DNA of 47,488 nucleotides from Halothiobacillaceae bacterium. GTDB lineage: Bacteria > Pseudomonadota > Gammaproteobacteria > Halothiobacillales > Halothiobacillaceae. The position numbers were made by a program, and so were the translations under genes. Under the pieces are notes generated by a model that searched no databases, was not told the DNA's origin, and saw nothing but the letters and a program-made list of their open reading frames with translations. Location of the stretch: positions 1 to 47,488 of the forward strand of contig JAQVHL010000016.1 of NCBI GenBank assembly GCA_028696185.1, in the 5' to 3' direction. Of this stretch, positions 11,420-47,308 are shown one piece after another (position 1 is the stretch's first letter; each line of letters begins with the position of its first letter).

Positions 11420-11836
11420 TCAGCGCACGCCGCAGGTATCGCGGCTGATGCCATAAATGACCAGCGAATAGTCGGTCATGTCGAAGCCATGTTCTTCGGC
11501 GATCTTGGCAATGCGTTCCTGAATTATCGGGTCATGGAATTCTTCGACCACACCGGTCTTGATACAGACGATGTGGTCGTGCTCCCCCTTGGAGATGAGT
11601 TCGAAGACAGCCTTGCCGCTTTCGAACTGATGACGCTTGACAATGTCGGCAGCCTCGAACTGGGTCAGCACCCGGTAAACGGTAGCCAGGCCGATTTCCT
11701 CGTTCTGGGAGAGAAGCTCCTTGTAAACATCCTCGGCACTCATGTGCCAGGCGGGATTGCGCTCAAGGATCTCAAGGATCTTCAAACGCGGAAGCGTGAC
11801 CTTGAGGCCGGCCTTTTTCAGTTCGCTGGATTCCAA
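11420..11836 (-). CDS. fur: Ferric uptake regulator Fur
   Basis: A 138-residue iron-responsive repressor. The DNA-binding part includes KVTLPRLKILEIL and IGLATVYRVLTQFEAADIV. The metal-binding part has EHDHIVC (H86, H88, C91) and FHDPIIQ. The second cysteine of the CxxC pair found in the E. coli protein is replaced here (CIKTG), as from memory it is also in Pseudomonas Fur, so a structural zinc at that site is unlikely. The family start maps to a TTG codon at 11836, with AGGAG about ten bases upstream and no in-frame ATG or GTG nearby; weak initiation may keep Fur low. It is divergent from bamE, an arrangement common in gammaproteobacteria. It probably regulates the TonB operon at 37888. Confidence 0.97.
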   Translation of the reverse strand: MESSELKKAGLKVTLPRLKILEILERNPAWHMSAEDVYKELLSQNEEIGLATVYRVLTQFEAADIVKRHQFESGKAVFELISKGEHDHIVCIKTGVVEEFHDPIIQERIAKIAEEHGFDMTDYSLVIYGISRDTCGVR

Positions 11837-36791: not shown

Positions 36792-37703
36792 CTAAGACGG
36801 CAAGGCCCAGCGAGGCGGCAGGCTGGCACGTAGATGGGCAATCAAGGCATCTACACGGTGCGCCCTTGGGGCGGCGGCCACCTTGAGGGACAGGGACAGA
36901 GGGGGCGCTTCCCAACCCTGCAGCACCGGACGGAAACGCCCTTTCAAACCATGCTTCGGGCATTCGGCCAGCCAGGCCGGAAGGATGCCGATACCGTAGC
37001 CGCGCGCGATGACATCCGCCTGCATCGGCAGGGAGTCGACCTTAAGACGCGCCTGGGGCTCGATCAGACAGTGCTCCTGCGCCCCCACCCGGCGCAAGGC
37101 AATGGTCGGAGATTCCCCCGCCAGTTCGACCCATGAGCAACCATCCAGGAGCTCTTCCGGGGTTTGCAATTGCGCACAGCGGCACGTCCCGCTCACCGAG
37201 GCATACAAGCGCCGCGTCCATTGTCCCAGCGGCACATGACGCAGGCCTGGCAGACGGGATTCCTCTCCGCAGGCAATCCAGACATCCACGCCTGTATCGC
37301 CTGGCAGACCCGCTTTCGGTACGACGGTGACCTCAAGACGAATACGCGGATGCCGGATCAGAAAATCATTGAGCACACGGGTGGCCCAGCCGCTGGTCAT
37401 CTCGGGACTGACCCAGACCCGTAAGGCCCCCTCCATCGCCTGCGCTTCGGCGGACAGGGAACAGCGGGCTTCTTCGGCCAGCGCGAGAATCCGCTGTGCA
37501 TACCCGGCATAACGCAGGCCCGCATCGCTCAGCAACAGGCGCCCGCCCTCCTGGCGGGTCAGACGCTGGCCCAACCCGCTTTCCAGCATGCTCAGACGAC
37601 GACTGAGTGTCGACTTGGGCCAGCCCAGCGCCCGTGCAGCGGCGCTCAGATTGGGATGCTCGCGCAGGGCCAGAACCGCGCGCAGCGCGTCGAAATCACT
37701 CAT
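36792..37703 (-). CDS. LysR-family transcription regulator
   Basis: 303 residues. The N-terminal winged helix-turn-helix is clear (LRAVLALREHPNLSAAARAL, then KSTLSRRLSMLESGLGQRL). The effector domain follows, with WVSPEMTSGWATRVLNDFL and RGYGIGILPAWLAE. LysR proteins usually control a divergent neighbour together with a small molecule; here that neighbour is the TonB receptor operon starting at 37888. The ATG at 37703 has AAGGAG about eight bases upstream; the longer frame has no homology. Five cysteines lie in the effector half, which is somewhat unusual. Confidence 0.94.
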   Translation of the reverse strand: MSDFDALRAVLALREHPNLSAAARALGWPKSTLSRRLSMLESGLGQRLTRQEGGRLLLSDAGLRYAGYAQRILALAEEARCSLSAEAQAMEGALRVWVSPEMTSGWATRVLNDFLIRHPRIRLEVTVVPKAGLPGDTGVDVWIACGEESRLPGLRHVPLGQWTRRLYASVSGTCRCAQLQTPEELLDGCSWVELAGESPTIALRRVGAQEHCLIEPQARLKVDSLPMQADVIARGYGIGILPAWLAECPKHGLKGRFRPVLQGWEAPPLSLSLKVAAAPRAHRVDALIAHLRASLPPRWALPS

Positions 37704-37741
37704 TTCATTCCACTCCTTACCTGGGCGATCCCGCCTGTTGC

Positions 37742-37764
37742 GATGAGGGGGCCACGCCCTCATC
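37742..37764. promoter_or_regulatory. Perfect inverted repeat between LysR and TonB genes
   Basis: GATGAGGG (37742-37749) and CCCTCATC (37757-37764) are exact 8-bp arms with a 7-nt loop. It lies 38 bp upstream of the LysR start, so it could be an operator for that regulator or another one. Confidence 0.4.
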
Positions 37765-37848
37765 CGTGTTCCATTTTTTGAACAAACCGTTCCCTTCCTG
37801 TGCCTTCCTGTATCGCGCCCAGCGGTTTACCATGCACAAAAAAGAAAT

Positions 37849-37867
37849 GCTATTGATTATTATTTCA
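37849..37867. promoter_or_regulatory. Fur-box-like site upstream of TonB receptor
   Basis: GCTATTGATTATTATTTCA, read on the minus strand, agrees with the 19-bp Fur consensus at 13 of 19 positions by my count. It lies 20 bp upstream of the receptor start, a place where a repressor would block transcription. The surroundings are AT-rich. Fur itself is encoded at 11420. Confidence 0.6.
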
Positions 37868-37887
37868 CATTACACGGAATGAAACGG

Positions 37888-39876
37888 ATGAAAAAGCCCT
37901 CGCTGCTCGCCCTCTCCCTGTGCCTGGGCACCGCTTCGGCCCAAGCCACCGATGAGGCTGCCCAAGCCCAGGAACTTCCCAATGTGGAAGTCCAGGCCGC
38001 ACATGAAGCGGATACCGCTCCCGGCGTGGAAAAACTGCCCATCGAACGCCTGCAACGCAATCAGGCCAAGGACATGGCGGATATCTTCCGCGACGAATCC
38101 TCGATCATCGTGGGCGGCGGCTCCCGCAATGCCCAGCGCCTCTACCTGCGCGGTATCGAGGCCAGCACCCTGAACGTCACGGTGGACGGCGCACGGCAAG
38201 GGCGCAATCTGTTCCAGCATCGCGGCAACATCGGCGGCATGGATCCGGAACTGCTCAAAAGTGTGGAAGTGCAGACCACCCCGAGCGCGGATCAGGGCGC
38301 CGGCGCCTTAGGCGGCAGCATTCGCTTTGAAACAGCAGACGCCCAGGATCTGCTCGCACCGGGGCGCAGACTCGGGGGAATGGTGAGAGGCGCGTACGGC
38401 AGCGTCGATCAGGCCCTGCGCGGCAGCACCAGCCTCTATGGCCTGCTGGGCGAACATGCCGGGCTGCTGGCCCATGTGAGCGCCACCAATTTCGAGGACT
38501 ACAAGGCCGGAGGCGGCGAAACCGTGAACGGCTCTGCCGGGCAGGATCGCGATTACTTCGTGAAATTCAGCCTGCTGGATGCGGCGGGCCACAGCCTGCG
38601 CGCCAGCGCCGAACGCAACCGGAACAGCGGCCTGTACCGCTATGCGGCGGCGGATGGCGCCTATGACCCGGACGCCCCCCTTACCTACCAGATCAGCCAA
38701 CGCGAAACCTATGTGCTCGATCACCGTTACCGCAAGCCTGGCAATGACCTGATCGACTGGAAGTTCAACGTCTTCAAAAATGAGCTTTCGCTTGAAAACC
38801 TGAGCAACGATACCCTGACCGAAAGCCAGGGTATGGGGGGCAAGCTGCGCAATATCGCCCGCTTCTCTCTCGGCCCAACCCGCCATAGCCTGACGGCCGG
38901 CCTCGACTATTACAGCGAAGAGGGCATCGAGACCCGGAGCAACGTTCAAAAAGGCAACGACAACAATGCCCGCAACACCGGCCTGTATCTGCAGGAGCGC
39001 ATGAATATCGGTCCGGTTCTGCTCTCTGTCGGGGCGCGGCACGATGATTACAGCAGCGATTTCGGCCCGGTGAACGTCAGTGGCAGCAAGGTATCGCCCA
39101 ACGCCAGTATCGAAGTGGAGATGGCCGGTGGTCTGAGCGGTCATCTGGCCTATGGTGAAGCCGTACGCAGCACCGGCATCATCCCCATTCAATGGTTGTC
39201 CAACACCACGGGTAACCCGACCTTCAACACCCAGAAAGGCAAGGACAGCTACGGTCGCGCTTTCGAGCCCGAAACGTCCAAACAAAAGGAAATCGGTCTG
39301 CGATACACCGCCAATGGCCTGATTGCCGCGAACGACCGCCTGCAGCTTGGCGCGACCGTATTTGAAACCGACATCGAAAATCTGATCCAGCAGATTGGCG
39401 GCTCGCAGGGCAAACCGGTCACCGGCTTCTATAACGACGACCCGGTTACCACCAAGGGCTACGAACTGCGCGCCAGCTGGATGATGAACCGCTGGCAGAC
39501 CCGTCTTAGCTTCACCCACGCCGACACCACCGGCAAGGACGGCCAGGCCCTTGCCGTGACCCGCCGTAAAGGCGCTTCCACGGGCGACCGGCTGGTGTGG
39601 GACACCCTGTGGCGTGTACGCGACGACCTCAACCTGGGTTACACCCTGACTGGCGTGGCCGGCCTGCATCGCGACAGCATCGACCGCTCCGGTTACACCC
39701 TGCACCACATCCAGGCTGAATGGAGCCCTGCCGCCCTGCGTGGCGTCAGTCTCGCGCTCGCCGTACGCAACCTGACCGACAAGCGTTACAGCGAACAGAG
39801 CTCCATCGGCACGGACGATACCGCCGTCGATGAACCCGGTCGCGATATCCGCCTGACCGCGACCTACCGCTTCTGA
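37888..39876 (+). CDS. TonB-dependent outer-membrane receptor
   Basis: About 662 residues. A signal peptide ends near SAQA (residue 20). The plug (about 30-150) has SIIVGGGSRNAQRLYLRGIE, NVTVDGARQGRNLFQHRG and SVEVQTTPSADQGAGALGGS. The 22-strand barrel ends in the usual aromatic, TATYRF. Such receptors import siderophores, haem, cobalamin or other metal complexes using TonB energy. The plug resembles haem/haemoglobin-type receptors, but the ligand cannot be named. The ATG at 37888 is preferred because GGA lies nine bases upstream; 37879 is also possible. A Fur-box-like site lies upstream, a LysR gene is divergent, and an exported tetrapyrrole-methylase-like protein follows. Confidence 0.93.
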   Translation: MKKPSLLALSLCLGTASAQATDEAAQAQELPNVEVQAAHEADTAPGVEKLPIERLQRNQAKDMADIFRDESSIIVGGGSRNAQRLYLRGIEASTLNVTVDGARQGRNLFQHRGNIGGMDPELLKSVEVQTTPSADQGAGALGGSIRFETADAQDLLAPGRRLGGMVRGAYGSVDQALRGSTSLYGLLGEHAGLLAHVSATNFEDYKAGGGETVNGSAGQDRDYFVKFSLLDAAGHSLRASAERNRNSGLYRYAAADGAYDPDAPLTYQISQRETYVLDHRYRKPGNDLIDWKFNVFKNELSLENLSNDTLTESQGMGGKLRNIARFSLGPTRHSLTAGLDYYSEEGIETRSNVQKGNDNNARNTGLYLQERMNIGPVLLSVGARHDDYSSDFGPVNVSGSKVSPNASIEVEMAGGLSGHLAYGEAVRSTGIIPIQWLSNTTGNPTFNTQKGKDSYGRAFEPETSKQKEIGLRYTANGLIAANDRLQLGATVFETDIENLIQQIGGSQGKPVTGFYNDDPVTTKGYELRASWMMNRWQTRLSFTHADTTGKDGQALAVTRRKGASTGDRLVWDTLWRVRDDLNLGYTLTGVAGLHRDSIDRSGYTLHHIQAEWSPAALRGVSLALAVRNLTDKRYSEQSSIGTDDTAVDEPGRDIRLTATYRF

Positions 39877-39900
39877 ATTCACCGCTGAGTTCTTCTCCCC

Positions 39901-39931
39901 TGGGCGGCCCGCCCGCCGCCCACTTCTTTTG
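39901..39931 (+). terminator. GC-rich hairpin between the receptor and methylase genes
   Basis: TGGGCGGC (39901-39908) and GCCGCCCA (39915-39922) are exact 8-bp arms with a 6-nt loop, followed by CTTCTTTTG. The U-run is interrupted, so it may be a partial terminator that lowers expression of the genes after the receptor, or a processing signal. Confidence 0.45.
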
Positions 39932-39950
39932 CCACAAAGGAACCCCCTCC

Positions 39951-40832
39951 ATGACCACGTCTCATCTACGTGCGTGCACGCTTGCGCTCGCACTGATCGC
40001 CTCACCGCTGAGCATGGCCTCTTCCGACACCCATGCAATGCCCAAGGGTGAGCTCTATCTGGTCAGCGCCGGTACCGGTGACCCGGAAAACATGACGCTA
40101 CGCGCCCATCGCCTGATCCAGTCCGCCGACCTGGTGCTCACCATGGGCGGACGTAAGGACGCCCTGGACGCGCTTATCAAGGACAAACCGGTACTGGACG
40201 CGGGCCATGGCCTGTTCGGCCTGTCCATCGACAAAAAGACCGGCGAAAAGCTGACGGAAGAAAAGCAGCTCGAAAATGCCGTAAAGGCCGCCCGGTCCAA
40301 GAAAACCGCAGAGGAAATCCGCGCCCAGCGCGATGAAAACCGCAAGCGCATACGCGAAGCCGTCGCCGCCGGCAAAAAAGTGGTGATTATCGACAATGGC
40401 GACCCGACGATCTTTGGTCCGCAGATCGGCTATATGAACGAATTTGCCGACCTGAACCCCCAGGTCGTGCCCGGACCGTCCAGCTTCAACGCTGCCAACG
40501 CCGCCCTGGCACGCAGCGTAGTGGGCGGAAAAAACCGTGCGGTAATGCTGACCATGGCCGCCCAGATGCATCAGGACGACAGCGCCGACCGTATGGCCCG
40601 ACTGATCGCCGATGGCACCACTGTGGTATTTTTCATGGAACGTGACACCCCGCGCTTTCTGGACGCGCTGAAAAAGCGCCTGCCGGGCTCAACGCCCATC
40701 GCGCTGGTTTCCAATGCCGGATCGCAGCAATCGCAACAGGTCATCCAGGCCACACTGGACACCCTGATGGCGCGCATCGGCGAGAACAAACCGAAGAATT
40801 ATCTGGTCTACGTCGGCGAATTTCTCGAATGA
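39951..40832 (+). CDS. Apparently exported tetrapyrrole (corrin/porphyrin) methylase-fold protein
   Basis: 293 residues. A signal-peptide-like start (ACTLALALIASPLSMA, cleavage near residue 23) is followed by a TP_methylase domain. That domain opens with GELYLVSAGTGDPENMTLRA (33-52), where CobA/CobM-type enzymes have a GPGDP loop; DNGDPTIFGP (148-157) and VPGPSSFNAANAAL (173-186) are the SAM-pocket regions. A helical Lys/Glu/Arg-rich insert lies at about 95-140. Normal enzymes of this fold are cytoplasmic because SAM is there. AAGGA upstream of 39951 supports the long start; the internal ATG at 40038 has no ribosome site. Function is unknown: possibly periplasmic tetrapyrrole binding for the receptor just upstream. 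It overlaps the permease gene (ATGA). Confidence 0.88.
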   Translation: MTTSHLRACTLALALIASPLSMASSDTHAMPKGELYLVSAGTGDPENMTLRAHRLIQSADLVLTMGGRKDALDALIKDKPVLDAGHGLFGLSIDKKTGEKLTEEKQLENAVKAARSKKTAEEIRAQRDENRKRIREAVAAGKKVVIIDNGDPTIFGPQIGYMNEFADLNPQVVPGPSSFNAANAALARSVVGGKNRAVMLTMAAQMHQDDSADRMARLIADGTTVVFFMERDTPRFLDALKKRLPGSTPIALVSNAGSQQSQQVIQATLDTLMARIGENKPKNYLVYVGEFLE

Positions 40833-42235
40833 GTTCGCCCGCCGCCTCAACTCCCCTGCGTCGTGAGCTTGGTTTACGCTCGGCCACCGTCCTGGTCATC
40901 GCCAACATGATCGGCAGCGGGGTGTTCACGACCTCCGGTTACATCATCGGTGAGCTGGGTAGCGCCCAGATGCTGTTGCTGTGCTGGCTGGTCGGCGGCC
41001 TGTTCGCCCTCGCCGGGGCCCTGTGCTACGGCGAGCTGGGCGCCATGCTGCCGCACGCAGGCGGCGAGTACATCTATCTGCGCGAGGCCTTCGGTCCGCT
41101 ACCCGCTTTTGTCTCGGGCTGGATCTCACTGATCGTCGGCTTTTCCGCGCCCATCGCGGCAGCGGCCATTGCCTTCGCCACTTATTTTCTCGGCAGCGAA
41201 GGCGAGGCTTTGCTGGTCCTGAGCGCCGCCGGGCACGACTGGCTGACCCTCTCCCCGGTCACCCTGCTGGCCAGCGCAGCGATTCTGGTCTTCACCTTGA
41301 TTCACCTGCACAGCTTGCGGCTGGGCAAGGGCGTGCAGAACCTCCTGACCGCCTACAAGCTGGGCTTCGTCGCCCTGTTCATCGGCGCCGGCCTGTGGCT
41401 GGGTGAAGGCAATCTGGCCCACCTCAGGCAAACCCTTCCGGAAGCCCCCGGCGGGGCGGCGAGCTTCGCCATTGCCCTGATCTTCGTTTCCTTTGCCTAC
41501 AGCGGCTGGAACGCTGCTGCGTATCTTGCCGGCGAGATACGCCGCCCGGAACGCAATCTGCCGCTAGCGCTCACCCTGGGTACCCTGCTGGTCGGCACAC
41601 TCTACCTGCTGATCAATCTCGTTTACCTCTACGCCCTGCCGCCCGAGGCGATGCGCGGCACGCTGGAGGTCGGCACGGCCGCCGCCGAAAAGCTCTTCGG
41701 CCCGACCATTGGCTCGCTGTTCGGCCTGGGTATCGCCCTGGGATTGTTATCGGTCATGAGCGCCATGATCATGGCCGGACCGCGCGTGTATTTCGCTATG
41801 GCACGCGATGGACTGTTCCCGCCATACTTCGGCCGGGTGCATCCCACCCGCGCCACACCGACCGGCGCCATCCTGTTTCAGTCCGTCATTGCCCTGGTGA
41901 TGGTGCTGGCCGCCGCCTACGACGCGCTGCTGATCTATATCGGCTTCACCCTGTCGCTGTCGTCGATGCTGGCGGTGGCCGCCCTGATGCGTCTGCGCCA
42001 CCTGCGCCCGGCGCTGCCGCGCCCCTACCGCACCCTCGGTTACCCGCTGACGCCCCTGCTGTTCATCGCCGGCAATCTATGGATCATCACCTACACCCTC
42101 AGCAGCCGCCCGGTGGTGGCGCTGTACGGTCTGGCCACCCTGACAGCAGGCGTGGCGCTGTATCGCCTGCGTTACCATAAAGTGGCACGAAGCGCTGAAA
42201 GAGCCCTGCCGGCAGAAGAAGGCGCTCCCTCCTAA
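40829..42235 (+). CDS. APC-family amino acid/polyamine permease
   Basis: 468 residues with about twelve membrane segments. The first segment has the APC signature SATVLVIANMIGSGVFTTSG; later blocks are FAYSGWNAAAYLAGEIRRPE and YFAMARDGLFPPYFGRVHPT, both standard in this superfamily. It should move amino acids or similar amines across the inner membrane; the substrate is unknown. The start overlaps the stop of the exported methylase-like gene (ATGA), so it is in that operon. It converges with mrp, 24 bp apart. Confidence 0.94.
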   Translation: MSSPAASTPLRRELGLRSATVLVIANMIGSGVFTTSGYIIGELGSAQMLLLCWLVGGLFALAGALCYGELGAMLPHAGGEYIYLREAFGPLPAFVSGWISLIVGFSAPIAAAAIAFATYFLGSEGEALLVLSAAGHDWLTLSPVTLLASAAILVFTLIHLHSLRLGKGVQNLLTAYKLGFVALFIGAGLWLGEGNLAHLRQTLPEAPGGAASFAIALIFVSFAYSGWNAAAYLAGEIRRPERNLPLALTLGTLLVGTLYLLINLVYLYALPPEAMRGTLEVGTAAAEKLFGPTIGSLFGLGIALGLLSVMSAMIMAGPRVYFAMARDGLFPPYFGRVHPTRATPTGAILFQSVIALVMVLAAAYDALLIYIGFTLSLSSMLAVAALMRLRHLRPALPRPYRTLGYPLTPLLFIAGNLWIITYTLSSRPVVALYGLATLTAGVALYRLRYHKVARSAERALPAEEGAPS

Positions 42236-44503: not shown

Positions 44504-44917
44504 TCACGCAGGGCTCTGGCGCATCCAGTCCTCCAGTCGCAGTCCTTCGACCCGCTCGAATCCACGCCGGTTGTTGCTCACCAGAATCAGGCCACGACTA
44601 CGAGCATGGCCCGCAATCATCGGATCGTAAGGCCCGATAGGTGTTCCCTGACGGGCAAGTTCAGCCCGGATCTGCCCGGTATGATTTGCAGCGGTGGTGT
44701 CGTAATCCAGAACATCCAGCCTCGCGATGAAACCCTCGATGACCTCCAGGTTTCTGACAGGCGCCGATGATTTTTCAGCGCCATAAATCAGTTCCATCAG
44801 AGTCACGGTGCTGATACACATCTGGCTGGCATGACGGCAAAAGATCCCGCGCAAGTCGCGAGGCTTGTTCTTGAGGGTGAAGAGGCAGATATTCGTATCC
44901 GGCATGTACTTCAGCAT
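44504..44917 (-). CDS. vapC: VapC-type PIN-domain toxin (endoribonuclease)
   Basis: 137 residues. PIN active-site acids are D7 in MPDTNICLF, E42 in TLMELIYGAE and D98 in IGPYDPMIAGHA; LVSNNRRGFERV follows as usual. It should cleave RNA (often initiator tRNA or similar) when not bound by its antitoxin. The start ATG overlaps the vapB stop by one base (TGATG), so the pair is co-translated. The C-terminus is complete. Confidence 0.95.
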   Translation of the reverse strand: MLKYMPDTNICLFTLKNKPRDLRGIFCRHASQMCISTVTLMELIYGAEKSSAPVRNLEVIEGFIARLDVLDYDTTAANHTGQIRAELARQGTPIGPYDPMIAGHARSRGLILVSNNRRGFERVEGLRLEDWMRQSPA

Positions 44918-45147
44918 CAGACCGCCTCGCGTTGCTGCTCTTGAACCGGCTCACGCTCCGTCATGAAGTCCTCGCTCACCCCAGGCCCGTCGAACCAGCT
45001 GTCCCAACCCTCGCCGGAGGGGGCGATAATGCGAGTGCGCCCAATGGCGATCACATCCACGCGCTTGACATCCTCGGGCAGGGCGACCGACTTGGGCAGT
45101 CGAATCGCCTGGCTACGGTTGCTCTTGAATACAGCGCCTTGTTCCAT
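44917..45147 (-). CDS. vapB: VapB/VagC-type antitoxin (AbrB-like)
   Basis: 76 residues. The swapped-hairpin DNA-binding domain has AVFKSNRSQAIRLPKSVALP and VDVIAIGRTRIIAP; the C-terminal half (WDSWFDGPGVSEDFM) is the typical toxin-wrapping tail. It neutralises VapC and represses its own operon. The start ATG has GGAAGG upstream, and the longer frame is without homology. A perfect palindrome lies just upstream. Confidence 0.95.
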   Translation of the reverse strand: MEQGAVFKSNRSQAIRLPKSVALPEDVKRVDVIAIGRTRIIAPSGEGWDSWFDGPGVSEDFMTEREPVQEQQREAV

Positions 45148-45163
45148 CGTGAGCCTTCCAAGG

Positions 45164-45184
45164 GGATATGCCAACGGCATATCC
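45164..45184. promoter_or_regulatory. VapBC operator palindrome
   Basis: GGATATGCC and GGCATATCC are exact 9-bp arms with a 3-nt spacer AAC. It lies 17 bp upstream of the vapB ATG and just after the predicted -10, where VapB or the VapBC complex would repress transcription. Confidence 0.85.
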
Positions 45185-45212
45185 ATCATGGAAAGAACCC
45201 TGGAGATGTCAA
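45185..45212 (-). promoter_or_regulatory. vapBC promoter
   Basis: On the minus strand a perfect TTGACA (-35, 45212-45207) is followed by a 16-bp spacer and CATGAT (-10, 45190-45185; 4 of 6 to TATAAT). The operator starts at the next base. Confidence 0.7.
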
Positions 45213-45244
45213 TGCAAGCCCGCTGAGCCCTGCAGGCATCCGTT

Positions 45245-47308
45245 TCACGCCTCCATTCCGCTGTGCCGCAACAGGGCATCGATCTGCGGATCGCGGCCGC
45301 GGAACGCCCGGAAGGAGTCCAGCGCGGGGCGGCTGCCGCCGACAGCGAGGATTTCACGCCAGAAGCGGGCGCCGGTCGCGGCATCGAGCAGGCTGCCCTG
45401 ACTGCCGCCGGCTTCCTCGAAGGCAGCAAAGGCGTCGGCGGAAAGCACTTCGGCCCATTTGTAGCTGTAGTACCCGGCCGCATAGCCGCCGGCAAAGATA
45501 TGGGCGAAACCGTGCGGAAAGCGGTGCCAGGCGGGCGGGTGGATGAGAGCGACTTCGCGGCGCACGGTTTCGATCAACGCAAGCACGGCCTCGACCGATA
45601 CCGGTTCCGTGGCGGCGGGTTCCTCGCTATGCAGGAGCAGATCGAACAGGGCAAATTCGATCTGACGCAGCATCTGCAATCCACTGTGGAAGTTGCGCGC
45701 GGCAAGCAGGCGATCATACAGCGTGCGCGGCAGCGGCTCGCCGGTCTGGACATGGGCGGTCATGCCGTGCAGCACGTCCCATTCCCAGCAGAAGTTTTCC
45801 ATAAACTGGCTGGGCAGCTCGACCGCGTCCCATTCAACGCCGTGGATGCCGGAAACGGCCAGTTCGTCCACTTCGGTCAGAAGATGGTGCAGGCCGTGGC
45901 CGAATTCGTGGAACAGCGTCAGCACGTCGTTGTGGGTGAAGGTGGCCGGGTCCGTCCCGACCGGACCGGGAAAATTGCAGACAAGATACGCCACCGGAGT
46001 CTGGGTACCGGCGGACAGCCTCGCCCGCGAGCGCGCGGAGTCCATCCACGCGCCACCGCGCTTGCCCGTGCGGGCGTAAAGATCAAGATAGAAATGCCCG
46101 ATGCCGGAGCCTTCGCGCTCCACGCGGTAAAATCGCACGTCCGGGTTCCAGACGGGGGCGCGATCCTCGACGATGGAGACGCCGAACAGGGTTTCGATAA
46201 CGCCGAACAGGCCCGCGATGACACGTGGCTCGGGCAGGTAACGGCGCAGCTCGTTTTCGGAGAAGTCATAACGCGCCTTGCGCAGCTTTTCCGCCGCGTA
46301 GGGGATGTCCCAGGGCATGAGTTCGGCAAGCCCGAGCTCGGCGGCGGCGAAGGCGCGCAGCTCCGTGAGGTCTTTTTCCGCATAAGGCCGCGCTCGGCGG
46401 GCCAGCTCGCGCAGGAAGGTCGTGACCTCGTCCACCGAGCGCGCCATTTTGGGCACCAGCGAAACCTCCGCGTAATGCCGATACCCCAGAAGCCGGGCCT
46501 GTTCACTGCGCAGGGCGAGGATGCGGCCGATGACCGGACCGTTGTCGCGCTCGGCGGGGCCGAATTCACTGGCACGGGTGGCATGGGCGCGGTAGAGCGT
46601 CTCGCGCAGGGCACGGTCGTCGGCATATTGCATCACCGGCAGGTAGGACGGCATGTGCAGGGTAAACAGCCAGCCGTCCTGCCCGGCACGTTCCGCCGCC
46701 TCGCGTGCCGCGCGGATGGCCTCTTCCGGCAAACCGGACAGCCCGGCTTCGTCATGGACGGTGTGGGTCCAGGCGCTGGTGGCATCGAGCAGGTTTTCCG
46801 AGAACTTCGCCGCCAGGGCGGAGAGCTCTTCCTGAATCGCCTTGAAACGCGGCTTGTCGACCTCGGGCAGCTCGGCGCCAGAGAGGCGGAAGTCGCGCAG
46901 CGACTGCTCGATGATGCGCTGGCGCACGGGATCAAGCGAGCCAAAGCACGGGGCGTCGTGGATGGCCTTGTACTTCGCGTACAGCGCGAGGTTCTGCCCC
47001 TGCTCGGCATAGAAAGCCGCCACCTCCGGCAACAGCGCGTTGTAAGCCTCGCGCCAGGGCGGGGTATCCATCACGCTGTGCAGATGGCCGACCACCCCCC
47101 AGGCGCGGTTCAGGCGCTCGCCCCCTTCGGTCAGGGGCTGAACGAAATTCTCCCAGCAGGGGGCGTCCGTATCCGCGAGCCGTGCCTCGATCAGGGCGCG
47201 GTTCTCGTCGATGAGCTGACGGATGGCCGGAGCGACGTGCTCGGGGCGCAGGGCGGCAAAGTCGATGAACTCGGCGGGATCGAGCAGCGGATTCACGGTG
47301 GCGGACAT
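45245..47308 (-). CDS. prlC: Oligopeptidase A (M3 metallopeptidase)
   Basis: 687 residues. It degrades short peptides in the cytoplasm, including cleaved signal peptides. The zinc motif is HEFGH (467-471), with the third ligand Glu in AVELPSQ (about E497), spaced as in thimet/oligopeptidase A. Other family blocks: ENFVQPLTEGGERLNRAWG, and HFYLDLYARTGKRGGAWM. The ATG at 47308 has AAAGG eight bases upstream; the longer frame adds no homology. Length matches E. coli OpdA. The remaining bases 47309-47488 show no gene. Confidence 0.98.
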   Translation of the reverse strand: MSATVNPLLDPAEFIDFAALRPEHVAPAIRQLIDENRALIEARLADTDAPCWENFVQPLTEGGERLNRAWGVVGHLHSVMDTPPWREAYNALLPEVAAFYAEQGQNLALYAKYKAIHDAPCFGSLDPVRQRIIEQSLRDFRLSGAELPEVDKPRFKAIQEELSALAAKFSENLLDATSAWTHTVHDEAGLSGLPEEAIRAAREAAERAGQDGWLFTLHMPSYLPVMQYADDRALRETLYRAHATRASEFGPAERDNGPVIGRILALRSEQARLLGYRHYAEVSLVPKMARSVDEVTTFLRELARRARPYAEKDLTELRAFAAAELGLAELMPWDIPYAAEKLRKARYDFSENELRRYLPEPRVIAGLFGVIETLFGVSIVEDRAPVWNPDVRFYRVEREGSGIGHFYLDLYARTGKRGGAWMDSARSRARLSAGTQTPVAYLVCNFPGPVGTDPATFTHNDVLTLFHEFGHGLHHLLTEVDELAVSGIHGVEWDAVELPSQFMENFCWEWDVLHGMTAHVQTGEPLPRTLYDRLLAARNFHSGLQMLRQIEFALFDLLLHSEEPAATEPVSVEAVLALIETVRREVALIHPPAWHRFPHGFAHIFAGGYAAGYYSYKWAEVLSADAFAAFEEAGGSQGSLLDAATGARFWREILAVGGSRPALDSFRAFRGRDPQIDALLRHSGMEA

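Follow-up and report, generated by a model that had tools for sequence, protein, structure and literature searches.

A candidate Fur-controlled uptake operon that pairs a TonB-dependent receptor with a predicted exported tetrapyrrole-methylase-fold protein

We analysed a stretch of 47,488 nucleotides from a Halothiobacillaceae bacterium (hereafter the window) in which a TonB-dependent receptor, a protein of the tetrapyrrole methylase fold and a permease are encoded in a row. Our preferred reading, to which we give slightly better than even chances, is that these genes encode a Fur-controlled uptake system in which the methylase-fold protein is the periplasmic partner of the receptor. Fur and LysR would control the operon and the receptor would carry a scarce ligand over the outer membrane. 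The exported protein would receive this ligand in the cleft that held SAM and the tetrapyrrole in its enzyme ancestors, and would hold or alter it. Passage through the inner membrane, of the ligand itself or of a product, would then be the task of the permease. The predicted export, the order of receptor, partner and permease, the Fur boxes of orthologs and the loss of the residues that bind the substrate in SUMT can be read from the sequences; we infer from them that the components interact directly and in which direction they transport.

The order of the operon, read back from the sequence, is a divergent LysR gene, a Fur-like site, the receptor, the PF00590 protein and the permease:

36792 to 37763, minus strand: LysR-type regulator gene, divergent (LysR_substrate 4.1e-18, HTH_1 1.4e-11)
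37764 to 37842, no strand: putative promoter element GAAC..CCGTTCC...CTTCC on the LysR side, common to 8 aligned promoters
37843 to 37867, plus strand: overlapping Fur-box-like sites 5' of the receptor gene (ortholog-trained matrix; ortholog Fur boxes align here)
37879 to 39876, plus strand: TonB-dependent receptor, heme-receptor-like, with plug His114 (TIGR01785; nearest solved structures ShuA/ChuA)
39951 to 40832, plus strand: tetrapyrrole-methylase-fold protein of 293 aa, predicted exported, signal peptide from residue 1 to ~24 (PF00590, 1.8e-37)
40236 to 40370, plus strand: loop of variable length in the ortholog alignment, residues ~96-140, two helices predicted
40829 to 42235, plus strand: APC-family permease, LAT-like (AA_permease_2, 2.9e-62; nearest solved structure LAT2)

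Every part of the gene arrangement described in the original prediction was recovered in its place, including the ATGA at 40829-40832, where the stop of the PF00590 gene overlaps the start of the permease, and the ribosome site of the PF00590 gene itself (AAAGGA, just 5' of the ATG at 39951). The genome holds just one other PF00590 gene, and two genes of the FUR family; one of the latter, a strong match (142 bits), is encoded at 11453-11815, inside the window as well. A likely VapBC-type toxin-antitoxin pair, recognised by eye only from a PIN-like start (MLKYMPDTNICLF), is found at 44504-45495.

Orthologs were collected with a pattern on the motif FNAANAAL, chosen by aligning the window protein with made-up variants that kept just two motifs (and were used nowhere else). 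Run on a collection of 85,000 species, it gave 70 orthologous loci, spanning Chromatiaceae, Thauera, Geobacter, Aliarcobacter, many Desulfobacterota and Planctomycetes. It is important to highlight that all loci were gathered by one motif; the sample may thus be biased, and the fractions of loci given below describe that sample. Two earlier sets of search patterns gave no matches, and matches on plasmids turned out to be ordinary cobalamin genes. Searches of 57 relatives, of 369 genomes from the class and of 398 from the phylum gave only matches of the CysG/CobA type. When a 56-row profile of the family was run over the 398 genomes of the phylum, the window protein scored 317 bits and the next best 123, a gap that sets the family apart and indicates that it is seldom present in this phylum.

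The window protein has a predicted signal peptide with n-, h- and c-regions (mean hydropathy of the h-region 2.19 by our own heuristic), a feature conserved in the family. A home-made heuristic scan of 84 family proteins classed 56 as having signal peptides, 13 as lipobox candidates, 3 as uncertain and 12 as without, such that a likely signal peptide or lipobox is present at the N-terminus of 72 of the 84. Several members have textbook lipoboxes (VIGC, VAGC, AAGC); among the other candidates, some may have a plain signal peptide in which a cysteine occurs by chance, and the conclusion on export holds either way. There is an internal in-frame ATG at 40038 (Met30), with no Shine-Dalgarno-like run ahead of it. 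This, together with the family-wide signals, indicates that the start at 39951 is the right one, and makes a cytoplasmic product starting at 40038 unlikely. In a FastTree phylogeny rooted on CysG/CobA/CobM, the family forms one clade whose basal members are exported and where the window protein groups with Aliarcobacter and Geobacter. Nine clear cytoplasmic forms (from Duganella, Janthinobacterium, Marinobacter, Marinobacterium, Halomonas, Terasakiispira, a Burkholderiales MAG, Vibrio and Paracoccus) nest within exported clades. Three further members (L072, L087 and L091) lack a signal and have long N-terminal extensions; their starts may be miscalled. Hence, judging from this tree, export looks ancestral to the family and not a recent event in the window copy: the protein is predicted to be exported, as first proposed, but this is not peculiar to it. 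In Desulfobacterota there are tandem fusions of two family domains in one exported protein, several of them with a lipobox (L065-L067, L069-L071, L074-L079, L082, L085, L088, L089 and L092).

Domain calls for this protein were made with Pfam and NCBIfam profiles. It matches PF00590 well above the Pfam cutoff (129.8 bits against 27.8) and falls under the equivalog cutoffs of the enzyme subfamilies: CysG (90.8 against 400 bits), CobA (75.1 against 185) and the precorrin-4 methyltransferase CobM (76.1 against 259.65). The Arg and Glu of FGRxxE, the uroporphyrinogen-binding residues of SUMT (as in NirE), are replaced in the family by Pro and Gly/Trp. Almost all members, whether exported or cytoplasmic, keep Ala256 and the Gly-Asp of the SAM motif; in the columns presumed from CysG to contact SAM, the window protein retains G150, D151 and A256 and has Thr for the equivalent of Pro225. 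The conserved cleft motif, in which Asn180, Asn183 and Met229 are specific to the family, suggests ligand binding. AlphaFold2 gave confident models for the window protein (pLDDT 89, pTM 0.84) and for a cytoplasmic relative (pLDDT 91, pTM 0.87). Both lobes align with CobM 4e16, with Z-scores of 16.0 for the window model (216 residues, VIA) and 17.5 for that of the relative. The global rmsd of the two models to tetrapyrrole methylases is 13.8 and 14.4 Å, whereas a lone lobe fits 3hh1 at 2.0-2.1 Å, so that the models place the two lobes differently with respect to each other. This non-canonical arrangement occurs in both models (m765d6f643d61 and md5249f054fc5) despite the high pTM; it could reflect a swap of domains between the subunits of a dimer, or an error of the prediction. 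The protein aligns over both lobes with the known PF00590 methylases (CobM/CbiF, SUMT/CysG, CbiL) and keeps the GDP motif and the PGxSS hinge, but differs from them in its predicted export, in the lost SUMT Arg/Glu, in P157 and the three cleft residues, and in the predicted placement of its lobes (rmsd ~14 Å). The insert at 95-140, first described as unfamiliar from the enzymes, is no special feature but a loop whose length varies between orthologs throughout the family.

A candidate Fur box precedes the operon. The window site (37849-37867) agrees with the strict 19-mer at 12 positions; the 13 previously counted are reached only when position 13 may be C, T or A. Taken alone it is within chance (shuffle P 0.075), and it becomes convincing only through its orthologs. 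Fur boxes are found ahead of the receptor in six LysR-linked loci and in Oligella (shuffle P 0 to 0.015), and AATGAGAATNATTCTA-type boxes stand in the aligned ortholog promoters at the same place as the window site. Scanned with a matrix trained on the ortholog boxes, the 47-kb window has its best matches at 37843 and 37849, and five Markov-shuffled windows have none as good. The element GAAC..CCGTTCC...CTTCC is a second conserved block, next to the Fur-like site on the LysR side. Zur sites were not above expectation in the scanned regions, and cobalamin riboswitches were absent by the operons in 26 scanned loci and the window, the only two being distant.

The receptor scores 263.7 bits with the TIGR01785 heme/hemoglobin receptor model, under its cutoff of 316.85. 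Gln-His at positions 113-114 of the plug is invariant in 14 of 14 aligned receptors, and His114 falls in the plug stretch that aligns to ShuA/ChuA, as expected of a plug-apex histidine; in ShuA, the heme-binding His86 lies in this stretch. A second histidine, in an extracellular loop, was not evident in the alignment of the 14 receptors. These features favour a metal-centred ligand, with heme as one unproven candidate. The receptor's cluster is present in 17 other loci (34-51% identity among those aligned). The operon resembles ShuA/ChuA systems in receptor family, predicted Fur control and plug histidine, but its receptor is below the family cutoff, and in place of an ABC heme importer or heme oxygenase it has the methylase-fold protein and the LAT-like permease. 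LAT-type permeases are known to transport amino acids, not tetrapyrroles.

We then consider gene neighbourhoods, in which nearby ORFs were clustered and labelled. In 44 of 71 loci, a TonB receptor gene is found on the same strand no more than 4 kb away. Close to the family gene, receptors occur at six times the density seen more than 5 kb away (0.108 versus 0.018 per kb). This pairing extends over several phyla, as anticipated by the original prediction, and such conservation supports its idea of a periplasmic partner; of that interpretation, predicted export and the link to the receptor, two points on which it could have failed, are upheld. The receptor-less loci, about one third, are notably those of Planctomycetes and of most cytoplasmic forms. 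The four-gene layout of LysR, receptor, partner and permease recurs in seven relatives (Thauera, Thiococcus, Imhoffiella, Thiorhodococcus, Rhabdochromatium, Thiohalocapsa and one MAG), with LysR orthologs 50-57% identical in the equivalent position of 7 loci and permease orthologs up to 74% identical. The same APC permease adjoins the gene in 35 of 71 loci. It is confined to exported forms (35 of 58, versus 0 of 12; Fisher exact test p = 1.6e-4, an optimistic value as related genomes are not independent). None of the nine cytoplasmic forms has it, and they have other transporters instead; the Planctomycete members are exported and also without it. In Desulfobacterota, the order is receptor, one- or two-domain methylase-fold protein, DUF4198 and permease. 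Two receptor genes of equal score and length on two contigs (G000:C54:26870-28063 and G000:C72:26769-27962) are a duplication or an assembly artefact.

The clues on the metal conflict. Iron is indicated in Gammaproteobacteria by the Fur boxes and the heme-like receptor. In Desulfobacterota and Planctomycetes, the genes for CooT, NikL-like proteins, CbiM, FmdE and Nik/Opp-type transporters point to nickel or cobalt. Within 4 kb of the gene and on its strand, DUF4198 is encoded in 26 loci, a NikL-like protein in 14 and FmdE in 11. For example, a CooT gene (a CO-dehydrogenase accessory protein) stands just upstream of a receptor (L089:4119-4418). DUF4198 is not decisive on the metal, because two such genes are among the most strongly Fur-regulated in Caulobacter, beside a TonB receptor (PMC3751524). 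Among the receptors next to Desulfobacterota members are selenoproteins, in whose genes an in-frame TGA stands in a Cys-x-Sec context and is followed by a hairpin (L045, L047, L052, L057, L061, L072, L080 and L082). In several of these TGA-split genes, which adjoin the exported methylase-fold protein, the hairpin (e.g. GGGATCGAGGTCGATCCC) is right behind. Selenocysteine TonB receptors (FCYXU motif; deep-Sep) are a known family, whose published account does not mention a methylase-fold partner (PMC12013277). These Desulfobacterota receptors are of that kind (NF049945), unlike that of the window, which is of the heme-like kind. The family may deal with complexes of two or more metals.

The alternative that survives best, although we consider it unlikely, is that nickel or cobalt is taken up in complex with a metallophore or amino acid, the amino-acid-like ligand entering through the APC permease. 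It would account for the nickel and cobalt genes (CooT, CbiM, NikL-like, FmdE, Nik/Opp-type ABC) that adjoin family members, for selenocysteine and cysteine receptors as ligands of soft metals, and for the LAT-like permease. The fusion of an MFS transporter and a spermidine synthase in some operons also speaks for it; this fusion has TPR repeats and lies in or near the operon at L071:11186-14458, and also at L077 and L079. However, the window and its Chromatiaceae-type relatives have Fur boxes, NikR sites are not enriched (14 regions against 36 expected, and 26 against 33), and no metallophore synthase was recognised among the scanned neighbours. NikL-like and CbiM genes, as in the NikKLMQO nickel ECF systems, adjoin some family members, but none is beside the window operon, where the signals are of Fur and not NikR.

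We deem it quite unlikely that the exported protein has remained a SAM-dependent methyltransferase and acts on the imported compound in the periplasm, the APC permease supplying SAM or swapping SAM for SAH. The restriction of this permease to exported forms fits such an enzyme, as does its absence from cytoplasmic forms, which have SAM at hand and use other transporters; so does the retention of GD and Ala256, although these residues may serve the fold. Yet we know of no periplasmic SAM pool, the predicted arrangement of the lobes would open the SAM cleft, and the Planctomycete members are exported without the permease. That the imported substrate is a metal complex, and the permease a SAM carrier that enables its methylation, is less probable still. 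A role of the exported protein as regulator, chaperone or sensor of the receptor, instead of ligand carrier, is very improbable: its gene is tightly linked to that of the receptor, but the conserved cleft motif suggests ligand binding and cytoplasmic forms occur without a receptor. Finally, it is barely credible that translation starts at 40038 and yields an ordinary corrin or siroheme methyltransferase of the cytoplasm, whose gene simply happens to neighbour that of a receptor, since, despite the PF00590 membership and the in-frame ATG, signal peptides or lipoboxes are family-wide, all enzyme model cutoffs are unmet, the SUMT Arg/Glu have become Pro and Gly/Trp, and the operon partners are conserved.

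Fur-controlled uptake with a periplasmic methylase-fold partner hence remains our preferred reading. We count against it the score of the receptor under the heme cutoff, the lack of an evident second loop histidine in the alignment, the LAT-type permease, the nickel/cobalt neighbours in Desulfobacterota, the receptor-less third of the loci and the possible bias from the motif. Binding of a tetrapyrrole or metal ligand by the methylase-fold protein is plausible given its fold, the Fur boxes and the heme-type receptor. Within this reading, an iron complex, e.g. heme or a related metallo-tetrapyrrole, ranks first as ligand, at somewhat under even chances; another metal complex or metallophore comes second, as a serious contender, and something else comes last, as an improbable one.

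Our literature search found no paper relating 'tetrapyrrole methylase' to TonB uptake or nickel in a relevant way. These results suggest an undescribed, probably iron-linked, nutrient uptake system across several phyla. In TonB-dependent uptake, the cargo normally passes to a classical solute-binding protein and then to an ABC importer. Here, a relative of corrin and siroheme enzymes and a LAT-like permease would occupy that place in Proteobacteria and Desulfobacterota, and in Planctomycetes without the receptor. If confirmed, this would give a function to proteins that are easily mislabelled as precorrin methyltransferases, and would link two kinds of receptors, heme-like and selenocysteine, whose cargo could then be tested.
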